The notes beneath the pieces are model-generated. The model was not told where the DNA came from and searched no databases. It worked only from the letters and a program-made list of their open reading frames with translations. Below are positions 43,778 to 46,867 of a stretch of 64,000 bases of DNA, piece after piece (within the stretch, counting starts at the first letter, position 1; each line of letters begins with the position of its first letter). The DNA comes from Kastovskya adunca ATA6-11-RM4. GTDB taxonomy: Bacteria; Cyanobacteriota; Cyanobacteriia; Cyanobacteriales; Coleofasciculaceae. The position numbers and the translations under genes are program-made. The stretch is from positions 62,001-126,000 of the forward strand of contig JAHHHJ010000009.1 of the NCBI GenBank assembly GCA_019359445.1. The letters are read 5' to 3'.

Positions 43778-45001
43778 TTAAGGATCGACCCAGCGATCGT
43801 CAGCTTTGATTAAATTAATCAACTCCTCAACGCCCTGAGACTCTGGTACCTTCTTGATTTCTTCTCTACCGCGATACAAAGAGATGAAACCGGGCTGCTT
43901 CCCAACATAACCATAGTCTGCATCTGCCATCTCACCGGGGCCATTGACGATACAACCCATCACAGCAATATCCAAACCTGTCAGGTGCTTAGTGGCTTCC
44001 CGGACTTCGTGTAGCACATCTTCTAAATTAAACAATGTGCGACCGCAAGACGGACAGGCGACGTATTCCACCATCGTCTTCCGCAGTCCTAGGGCTTGCA
44101 AAATGCTGTAGCAGACGGGAATTTCTTTTTCGGGGGCTTCGGTGAGGGAGACGCGGATAGTATCGCCAATGCCATCCGCTAGCAATGTCGCAATTCCAGC
44201 CGTAGACTTAATCCGTCCGTATTCCCCATCACCCGCTTCGGTGACACCGAGGTGCAAGGGGTAGTCCATCCCCAACTCATCCATGCGTCGCACCATCAGG
44301 CGATAAGCGGCTAGCATCACGGGGACTCGTGAGGCTTTGAGGGAGATAACGAGGTTGCGGAAGTCTAGGGATTCGCAGATGCGAATAAATTCCAGGGCAG
44401 ATTCTACCATTCCTTCGGGAGTGTCGCCGTAGGTAAATAGCATCCGTTCAGCAAGGGAACCGTGATTGACGCCGATTCGCATCGCCTTACCCTGATCGCG
44501 CAAAGAAACCACGAGAGGTTCTAAGGTTTCGCGAATTTTTGACCCAATTTCCTCAAATTCTGCCGGGGTGTATTCAGTTCTGTCAGCTTTTGGCTTTTCA
44601 AAAACATATAAGCCTGGATTAATCCGCACTTTATCAACGTGCTTGGCAACTTCCAGGGCTATTTTCAAGCCGTTGTGATGCACGTCAGCAACTAACGGTA
44701 CCGCTTGGTAAGTTTGGGCTAATTTCTGCTTAATTTCCGCTAAAGCCTTGGCATGAGCCATGCTGGGCACGGTGACGCGGACTATTTCGCAGCCAATCTC
44801 GTGCAGGCGACGAATTCCGGCAACAGATCCCTCGATATCCAGGGTATCTTCGTTAATCATCGACTGCACGACCACTGGATGACCACCGCCGATGGTAACG
44901 TTGCTAACTTTCACCGGGCGAGTTTGGCGGCGATTAATCGTTGTATCAACAGGAGGTTGAGTAGAAGCAGCTTTGGGCGTTGGAAGCGTTTGCATATACA
45001 C
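43778..45001 (-). CDS. ispG: 4-hydroxy-3-methylbut-2-en-1-yl diphosphate synthase (ferredoxin)
   Basis: MEP-pathway Fe-S enzyme turning MEcPP into HMBPP. 407 residues. The start of the TIM barrel is [26 protein letters not shown], followed by [25 protein letters not shown] and [14 protein letters not shown]. The 4Fe-4S ligands are in CPSCGRTLF and [20 protein letters not shown]. The compact, single-TIM form is that of bacteria using ferredoxin or flavodoxin. A start two codons downstream (44995) is equally possible. Confidence 0.95.
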
Positions 45002-45171: not shown

Positions 45172-46032
45172 TCAAGATACAACAGCTAGCTGAGGCAACT
45201 TATGAATTTCAGGGATAATGCGCCCTACTGCTGCGGCTAAGGGTCGCAAGCCATGAACCAAATCCACCATATCTTCTAAAGACAACGCCTGACGCGCATC
45301 GGAGACTGATTGTTCTGGTTCTGGGTGACATTCGATAATTAAGCCATCCGCACCACAAGCAATGGCAGCTTTTGCTAGGGGTGCTACTAGTTCCCGTTTA
45401 CCAACAGCGTGGGAAGGATCGACAATGACGGGTAAGTGGGTAATTTGCTTGAGGGCGGCTACTGCACCCAAATCCAGCACGTTACGGGTATAAGGATCGA
45501 AGCTGCGAATACCTCGTTCACACAGCACTACATCAGGATTTCCGTGGCTCAAAATGTACTCGGCTGCCATCACAAACTCTTCAATGGTTGAGGCAAGTCC
45601 CCGCTTTAGCAAGATAGGCTTTCCAGCACTTCCTAAAGCTTTCAGCAAGTCGAAGTTTTGCATGTTGCGACTACCGACTTGTAGCATATCGGCATGGGCA
45701 GCGATGTCTTCAATTTGCCCAATCGACATTACCTCCGTCACGACAGGAATATTGTGACGCTCTTTGACGGCGGCTAAAATTTCTAGTCCTTCTAGTCCCA
45801 TTCCCTGGAAGGCGTAGGGAGATGTCCGAGGTTTGAAAACGCCACCCCGCAGCGCTTGAACGGGTGCGTGCTTGAGCTGAGTGGCAACGGTTTCCATTTG
45901 TTCTCGATTCTCGACGGTACAGGGCCCGCCAATGATGGCAAGTTCTGTCCCTCCGATGGCGATATCTTTGGATAATTGAACGACTGTTTTGTGTTCGGGG
46001 TGAGATTGGCTGGCAAGTTTGGCGTTTAACAT
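45172..46032 (-). CDS. aroF: 3-deoxy-7-phosphoheptulonate (DAHP) synthase, type I-beta
   Basis: First step of the shikimate pathway: phosphoenolpyruvate plus erythrose 4-phosphate gives DAHP. 286 residues, lacking an ACT or chorismate-mutase extension; about 30 residues precede the barrel. Signatures: IIGGPCTVENREQM, LRGGVFKPRTSPYAFQG, LQVGSRNMQNFDLLKALG, LLKRGLASTIEEF, VDPSHAVGKRE and DGLIIECHPEPE. The start follows an AAGGA at about 46040-46044. About 300 nt upstream carry two leader-peptide attenuators, so transcription is probably governed by aromatic amino acid supply. Gene symbols for this family vary (aroF, aroG, aroA). Confidence 0.95.
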   Translation of the reverse strand: MLNAKLASQSHPEHKTVVQLSKDIAIGGTELAIIGGPCTVENREQMETVATQLKHAPVQALRGGVFKPRTSPYAFQGMGLEGLEILAAVKERHNIPVVTEVMSIGQIEDIAAHADMLQVGSRNMQNFDLLKALGSAGKPILLKRGLASTIEEFVMAAEYILSHGNPDVVLCERGIRSFDPYTRNVLDLGAVAALKQITHLPVIVDPSHAVGKRELVAPLAKAAIACGADGLIIECHPEPEQSVSDARQALSLEDMVDLVHGLRPLAAAVGRIIPEIHKLPQLAVVS

Positions 46033-46066: not shown

Positions 46067-46101
46067 AAATAAAAAACCCGGTTCCCTTGCGGGTTCCGGG
46101 T
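46067..46101 (-). terminator. Gene-proximal attenuator terminator of the DAHP synthase leader
   Basis: The minus-strand RNA reads ACCCGG-AA-CCC, a GCAA tetraloop, then GGG-AA-CCGGGU. The outer 6-bp and inner 3-bp helices flank an AA/AA internal loop. The stem is followed by UUUUUUAUUU. It lies 26 nt after the proximal leader-peptide stop and 34 nt before the aroF start. Its 5' arm (with the adjoining AA) is fully complementary to the end of the leader ORF. Confidence 0.88.
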
Positions 46102-46127
46102 TGAAGTGCTGCATCGCAAGACTTTAC

Positions 46128-46193
46128 TTACCCGGAAGTAATTCGGGGCCAAAAGTAAAAGCTGTAAAAGTAGCTACTGGGAGCAGTTGTCAT
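46128..46193 (-). CDS. Proximal aromatic-rich leader peptide (21 aa) of the DAHP synthase attenuator
   Basis: Starts ATG at 46191-46193 and ends TAA at 46128-46130. Codons 8-15 encode YFYSFYFW, seven aromatic residues out of eight. Six further codons (PRITSG) lead to the stop. The RNA of the last codons (UUCCGGGU, complement of 46130-46137) is perfectly complementary to ACCCGGAA at the terminator's 5' side. This is the arrangement of ribosome-mediated attenuators. No strong Shine-Dalgarno sequence is visible. Too short for ordinary gene finders. Confidence 0.88.
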   Translation of the reverse strand: MTTAPSSYFYSFYFWPRITSG

Positions 46194-46223
46194 GAGTGCA
46201 GTTTCTTAGAGAGTAATGTGCCT

Positions 46224-46260
46224 TAAAAAAACAAAAGACCGCAGATTTTGTTCTGCGGTC
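46224..46260 (-). terminator. Distal attenuator terminator of the DAHP synthase leader
   Basis: GACCGCAGA and TCTGCGGTC (46237-46245 and 46252-46260) form a perfect 9-bp stem. On the minus strand it is followed by UUUUGUUUUUUU. It lies 26 nt after the distal leader ORF and upstream of the proximal leader ORF. Without antitermination it would stop transcripts before the second module. Confidence 0.9.
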
Positions 46261-46286
46261 CACCGGGTCTCCATGCAAAGCTGGAT

Positions 46287-46343
46287 TCACTGCCGGTGAA
46301 CCTGGGTAAACCAATAATAAAAGTAGTAGCTGCGGTTAAACAT
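46287..46343 (-). CDS. Distal aromatic-rich leader peptide (18 aa) of the DAHP synthase attenuator
   Basis: Starts ATG at 46341-46343 and ends TGA at 46287-46289. Codons 6-12 encode YYFYYWF without interruption. Six codons (TQVHRQ) precede the stop, exactly as in the proximal module. GGUUCACCGG in the end of the ORF (complement of 46293-46302) pairs over ten bases with CCGGUGGACC (46257-46266), which covers the first four bases of the terminator stem. The aromatic-rich content, geometry and terminator together make chance unlikely. Confidence 0.9.
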   Translation of the reverse strand: MFNRSYYFYYWFTQVHRQ

Positions 46344-46390
46344 TATTTGCGCCCAGAAGAATACTTGGCTAAATCTTGCTAATGCGCCTA

Positions 46391-46420
46391 ACACTAACAA
46401 GCTTTATAGGAAGAAGTCAA
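46391..46420 (-). promoter_or_regulatory. Weak candidate promoter of the aroF leader transcript
   Basis: TTGACT (complement of 46415-46420) and TAGTGT (complement of 46391-46396) with 18 bp between. It would start the RNA some 40-50 nt before the distal leader ORF. The -10 match is poor (three of six), so this is tentative. Confidence 0.25.
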
Positions 46421-46465: not shown

Positions 46466-46867
46466 TCATGACAATTGTGGCTTGGGTACGAGGTTTTTGG
46501 CGGCAATTTGCTTACCAAAGGCATCACAGATTAATGGCCCCGTCAGACAAGTAACAACGACGTAGACCATAATCGCGTTAAATAACCCGACGGTAATTAG
46601 ATTGGATTGCTGGGCAAACAGGGCAATTACTAGCACTAACCCAGCGCGAGACATGGTTAGCCCAAACATGACCATTGCATCGGCAAAGGTGTAACTGAAG
46701 ACTTGACTTGCCACCCAAGCGGCGAAAAACTTCGCTCCCACTGCCCCGATAATTACAGCGATCGCTACTCCTAAATTCTCTGGATTAGTCACTAAAATCC
46801 GGGGATTGCACAGCACCCCAACAGAAATCAAAAAGGCGGGGATAAATAAGCTATTGCCCACCAGCAC
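46466..46867 (-). pseudogene. Remnant of a cation:proton antiporter (CPA family)
   Basis: 133 residues resembling the second half of a Na+/H+ exchanger membrane domain: LVGNSLFIPAFLISVGVLCNPRIL, VGAKFFAAW and MVMFGLTMSRAGLVLVIALFAQQSNLI. Complete proteins have about 12 membrane segments and often cytosolic domains. Here only four or five segments remain. An in-frame TGA lies directly before the GTG at 46865-46867, and the preceding sequence does not continue the homology. This is probably a deletion remnant, with no sign of the N-terminal half in the window. Confidence 0.7.

Follow-up and report, generated by a model that had tools for sequence, protein, structure and literature searches.

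The trp and pheA genes of enterobacteria are controlled by leader-peptide attenuators, and this classical, ribosome-mediated form of attenuation needs a ribosome that keeps pace with RNA polymerase. A comparative survey of attenuation was reportedly made by Lopatovskaya and coworkers in 2010 (cited in PMC4833913). Tandem attenuators have been described in the leader of Salmonella mgtCBR, where the signals are ATP and proline and the stem-loops are unlike intrinsic terminators, and in 2012 they were termed a singular example (PMC3641672). For a DAHP synthase gene, the uORFC-13-1 motif provides a predicted single uORF upstream of Acholeplasma aroF, seen only in Acholeplasma and in unassigned environmental sequences (PMC8632094). 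No account of a cyanobacterial aroF attenuator, or of a conserved tandem pair, was found in the open-access literature, subscription papers being outside the scope.

The aroF leader of Kastovskya adunca ATA6-11-RM4, contained in the 64,000-nucleotide stretch of DNA analysed here (the window), belongs to trp/pheA-type attenuation as a broadly conserved variant in which two modules with the same signal follow one another. The principle is ordinary and the form is new; translation, stalling, termination and response are inferred. With trp and pheA it shares a short ORF rich in end-product codons and a ribosome-controlled choice between antiterminator and terminator. It differs from them in its place before a cyanobacterial aroF, in having two complete modules in series with mixed Phe/Tyr/Trp runs and in the antiterminator 5′ arm, which lies within the last leader codons, and the sequences are unrelated. 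The likeness to mgtCBR consists in two leader ORFs in one leader before the gene, each affecting transcription (here by inference). The mgtCBR attenuators respond to different signals, whereas the two aroF modules share their aromatic signals, with a separate intrinsic terminator for each. The Acholeplasma motif likewise places a predicted uORF with Phe codons beside a terminator before a DAHP synthase gene, but it has a single uORF against the two modules of the cyanobacterial leader.

Very probably, aroF is controlled by two ribosome-mediated (leader-peptide) transcription attenuators placed one after the other. The ORFs, terminators, antiterminators, their geometry and conservation and the single promoter can be read from the DNA itself, while translation, stalling, termination in vivo, the response to amino acids and its multiplication are inferred, there being no expression data. 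The sequence-only reading had proposed two complete leader-peptide attenuators in tandem, and this proposal is supported by conserved aromatic codons, covarying antiterminators, conserved terminators, a shared promoter and near-exclusive linkage to AroF. The order on the minus strand is one promoter, the distal module, the proximal module and aroF:

46391 to 46420, minus strand: promoter, TTGACT at 46420-46415 and TAGTGT at 46396-46391, with TG upstream of the −10 (conserved consensus)
46287 to 46343, minus strand: distal leader ORF, MFNRSYYFYYWFTQVHRQ and stop (read from the sequence, with conservation in relatives)
46128 to 46193, minus strand: proximal leader ORF, MTTAPSSYFYSFYFWPRITSG and stop (read from the sequence, with conservation in relatives)
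45172 to 46032, minus strand: aroF, encoding a type I-beta DAHP synthase of 286 aa (PF00793, E 6e-78)

The two aromatic-rich ORFs read exactly as first noted, with 18 codons in the distal (46343-46287) and 21 codons in the proximal one (46193-46128), and in each of them six codons follow the last aromatic codon before the stop is reached. The distance from stop to hairpin, given earlier as exactly 26 nt, is 25-26 nt in both modules of the window; because it varies among relatives, the agreement is a coincidence in the Kastovskya strain, and 26 nt was ruled out as a conserved ruler. Two such aromatic mini-ORFs are expected by chance in 0.03% of shuffles that keep the leader composition. Conservation across relatives is far stronger evidence than this statistic.

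Transcription is predicted to start near 46384. In an alignment of 80 loci the consensus TTGAC...TGnTAnnnT was found upstream of the distal ORF, and no other conserved promoter-like element was found in the leader. Only about 30 nt lie between the distal U tract and the proximal start codon in the window, a gap too short to house another promoter and leader, so that transcripts at the proximal module have passed the distal terminator. Upstream of the promoter, an ORF at 46466-46867 (minus strand) resembles the C-terminal part of a membrane transporter and is possibly truncated.

AroF orthologs were drawn from relatives and from named public genomes, and their upstream DNA was read; this set of ~100 loci holds many close relatives, and some genomes are present twice. 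Both modules were found upstream of ~95 of the ~100 public orthologs with usable upstream sequence, and both peptides in nearly all orthologs with at least 70% identity and intact upstream DNA. The organisms include Nostoc, Anabaena, Calothrix, Scytonema, Microcoleus, Hydrococcus, Leptolyngbya, Oculatella and Stenomitos. Conservation of aromatic mini-ORFs and terminators upstream of cyanobacterial aroF had been suggested as a check, and it was borne out by these counts. In nearly all AroF orthologs the distal peptide follows the consensus M...SYFYFWF..VHRE and the proximal peptide MTYFSSWFYGFYFWPRxSSG, each followed by the stop.

A covariance model for each module was run over 291 genomes drawn evenly across the phylum. 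Matches to the distal model were obtained in 28 genomes, one per genome, and strong full-length matches to the proximal model in 27. A short AroF (at least 71% identity) is present in 28 of the 291 genomes, with none between 71% and 56%; both modules precede it in 26, the distal alone in G048 and the proximal alone in G183. Outside the AroF genomes the distal model was matched once, in G083 (L124, C48:72000-75500), directly before a decayed aroF fragment. There the proximal module and the gene start are missing, the distal terminator has decayed and no intact short AroF is found; this locus is a natural loss event. The wider set adds L021 (from G042) and L102 with the proximal module only, and L065, where only the proximal module is visible but a contig end is near. 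Such single-module relatives (G048, G183, G042) could be taken to mean that only one module regulates and the other is a vestige or spare copy. We give this little credence, since 26 of 28 genomes, from many families, retain both modules under constraint on codons and pairing, and a vestige should decay as the distal terminator beside the broken aroF of G083 did. Weak matches of the proximal model in small distant genomes within the phylum were set aside; most cover the terminator end alone, and all have marginal E-values. At L131 (G213:C1:729000-731400, ~1310-1475) the proximal stop is apparently shifted by two bases and the leader frame runs into the terminator, which is either a natural variant or a sequencing error.

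The claim that the codon runs match the end products of the pathway agrees with the wider set, as Phe, Tyr and Trp codons are all present in every module (81 distal, 76 proximal). The mean F/Y/W content is 3.1/2.5/1.2 per distal and 3.6/2.8/1.9 per proximal module. A Tyr-heavy distal run had been contrasted with a mixed Phe/Tyr proximal one; the distal run is indeed Tyr-heavy in this strain, but the means of the relatives do not repeat it. Separate sensing by amino acid identity, which had been inferred from the contrast, is unsupported and was rejected, all three aromatic codon sets being present in each module. Where codons of the aromatic cores depart from the consensus, 71% of distal and 88% of proximal cells are still aromatic, and the share expected for random single changes is 16-19% (binomial p of 3e-4 for distal and 2e-4 for proximal, each distinct single-base variant counted once). 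On this comparison the leader codons qualify as being under selection to stay aromatic. First positions of the aromatic codons are almost fixed as T, and second and third positions are variable. UUU makes up ~85% of the Phe codons in leader ORFs of all loci, 30% in aroF genes and 70% in the long ORFs of the window.

Tryptophan is found at −8 in 77 of 81 distal peptides and at −7 in 71 of 76 proximal ones. Position-specific residues of this kind would suit arrest peptides, in which the nascent chain stalls on a free aromatic compound and not on uncharged tRNA. We find this distinctly unlikely, as F, Y and W interchange at many core positions and the conserved C-terminal residues are accounted for by RNA pairing. 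That pairing involves the following elements in the distal module:

46293 to 46302, minus strand: distal antiterminator 5′ arm GGUUCACCGG, within the last leader codons (covarying helix, fold)
46257 to 46266, minus strand: distal antiterminator 3′ arm CCGGUGGACC, overlapping the terminator base by ~5 nt (covarying helix, fold)
46226 to 46261, minus strand: distal intrinsic terminator, GGACCGCAG...CUGCGGUC and U tract (−17.3 kcal/mol, z −5.95)

The distal antiterminator is formed by GGUUCACCGGG, within the last codons, and its partner CCCGGUGAACC, which precedes the terminator. The alignment supports this as a helix of 11 pairs, with 94% of 550 cells paired and double-sided changes in 29 cells against a shuffled mean of 5.7 (0/500 shuffles), and in the window it folds at −22.8 kcal/mol. 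The terminator is conserved, its basal pair changing from A-U to G-C in 10 of 50 sequences. It is overlapped by the antiterminator only at the basal 4-5 nt, and six antiterminator pairs are compatible with the full terminator in the equilibrium fold of the window. A local hairpin, GUUCAC...GUGAAU, is 92% paired without covariation, and a pairing of the start region with the region after the stop showed a weak effect in the distal module (z −2.6, 33 divergent loci).

The corresponding elements of the proximal module include one further helix, H1:

46189 to 46201, minus strand: H1 5′ arm CTGCACTCATGAC, around the start codon (partner-permutation energies)
46109 to 46122, minus strand: H1 3′ arm GTCTTGCGATGCAG, just after the stop codon (partner-permutation energies)
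46130 to 46137, minus strand: proximal antiterminator 5′ arm UUCCGGGU, last codons and stop (pairing in the alignment, fold)
46094 to 46101, minus strand: proximal antiterminator 3′ arm ACCCGGAA, also the terminator 5′ arm (pairing in the alignment, fold)
46067 to 46102, minus strand: proximal intrinsic terminator, AACCCGG...CCGGGUU and U tract (−17.3 kcal/mol, z −4.07; conserved)

A rho-independent terminator with a U tract had been assigned to each module, and both are real hairpins of −17.3 kcal/mol. A simple terminator scan listed the distal one only; the proximal one was missed because its stem has an internal loop. The proximal antiterminator pairs GUUCCGGG with CCCGGAAC, the latter doubling as the 5′ arm of the terminator. 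In the alignment 93% of its cells are paired and its covariation is modest (4 double-sided cells against 1.0 shuffled, 6/500), and its fold in the window is −16.7 kcal/mol. For H1 the mean own-partner energy is −14.8 kcal/mol against −11.5 kcal/mol for permuted partners (z −7.1, 33 divergent loci), and by this measure H1 is a third, coevolving helix. Since the antiterminator 5′ arm lies inside it, the two could form together only as a pseudoknot. By inference, H1 may be what keeps polymerase from reading past an untranslated proximal leader, a role that a protector (1:2) hairpin has in trp/pheA-type attenuation.

Peptide conservation over wide distances could also point to functional microproteins, with the terminators being incidental. 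This is very improbable, since the N-terminal parts are variable, the C-terminal parts track the antiterminator pairing and terminator and antiterminator compete in each module. Terminators before amino acid genes are likewise shared by T-box, TRAP and riboswitch leaders, so that a protein or metabolite might bind the RNA and the ORFs might be due to chance. No Rfam covariance model reached its gathering threshold in the window, and what is conserved is the codons together with the sequences complementary to them; a leader of this type can scarcely be credited. Two leader-peptide attenuators remain the preferred reading.

The antiterminator arms of the two modules are unrelated in sequence, yet their spacing from the aromatic or Trp codon is conserved. 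Of 81 distal modules, 76 have the start of the arm 9 nt after the Trp codon; among 70 proximal ones, the offset from the final aromatic codon is 11 nt in 61. The conserved ruler is the distance from this codon to the arm. With the arm starting 9-11 nt past the codon, a stalled ribosome would leave the arm free and a ribosome at the stop codon would mask it. A footprint model, in which the ribosome was assumed to cover 16 nt from the first P-site base, was applied to those modules with arms that could be placed (79 distal, 47 proximal), with pairing evaluated at the emergence of the 5′ terminator arm. In both modules the predicted antiterminator pairing is 0.97 for early stalls in the aromatic run and drops to 0 past its end. 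Proximal pairing is still 0.96 when the last Trp codon occupies the A site, and it is 0 at and beyond the point four codons short of the stop; distal pairing is down to 0.82 when Trp occupies the A site, to 0.47 at the next codon and to 0 at and beyond the point five codons short of the stop. At equilibrium, the model lets the proximal terminator win even with a stalled ribosome (antiterminator 0.3). As the complete terminator wins, the proximal choice must be kinetic, and the choice of fold is kinetic in known attenuators. For an untranslated distal leader the predicted read-through is 0.96, which differs from classical superattenuation.

The proposed course of events is as follows. RNA polymerase would start at the single conserved promoter upstream of the distal module. 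With charged tRNA-Phe, tRNA-Tyr and tRNA-Trp plentiful, the ribosome would reach the leader stop and cover the 5′ arm, the terminator would fold and transcription would end. Scarcity of any of the three would stall the ribosome in the aromatic run, and the free 5′ arm would pair with the terminator base and allow read-through. The proximal module would repeat the same test before aroF, and the output would be set roughly by multiplying the two read-through probabilities, which would steepen the response and keep leakage low.

The genome also encodes a long DAHP synthase paralog of 352 aa (L129, G000:C24, 168-1226, minus strand) with an N-terminal ferredoxin-like domain, PF18152. No PF18152 was found in the AroF of the window, which has the DAHP synthase domain alone, and no aromatic leader was found upstream of the long paralog or of sampled long paralogs of relatives. 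The leader thus belongs to the short AroF without the regulatory domain and the long paralog shows the opposite, that is, RNA control goes with the domain-less isozyme. Feedback inhibition through PF18152 is here an inference from related enzymes. In the same genome no aromatic leader ORF was found upstream of the chorismate-binding (trpE-like), pheA and tyrA genes, and a genome search for runs of four F/Y codons plus Trp returned 13 sites, the distal leader being the one recognised leader ORF among them.

Tentatively, and with more doubt than confidence, we suggest an ancient two-stage cascade in which one aromatic tRNA signal is read twice and the two readings are multiplied, and which takes the place of the allosteric control missing from the short DAHP synthase. 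H1 would make an untranslated proximal leader terminate, an untranslated distal leader would not, and the pair would thus sense translation initiation as well as the supply of amino acids. If the series arrangement is true, classical ribosome-mediated attenuation would be a long-conserved mechanism in cyanobacteria, and the leader would be a natural test case for the keeping of two identical-signal switches in series, with single-module relatives as controls. Control of DAHP synthase would appear to be split, the long form by a protein domain and the short form by RNA, and metabolic engineering of aromatics in cyanobacteria would gain an unrecognised control point.

Weak full-length cross-matches between the module models were observed for the distal modules of L095 (proximal model, E 3e-5), L109 and L094 and for the proximal module of L131 (distal model, E 0.005). 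They hint at an old duplication of the modules; the shared aromatic run and U tract may explain them instead. Downstream of aroF on the same strand, the gene at 43778-45001 is ispG-like by eye (isoprenoid pathway), and with ~170 nt between the two, attenuation could affect this gene too.
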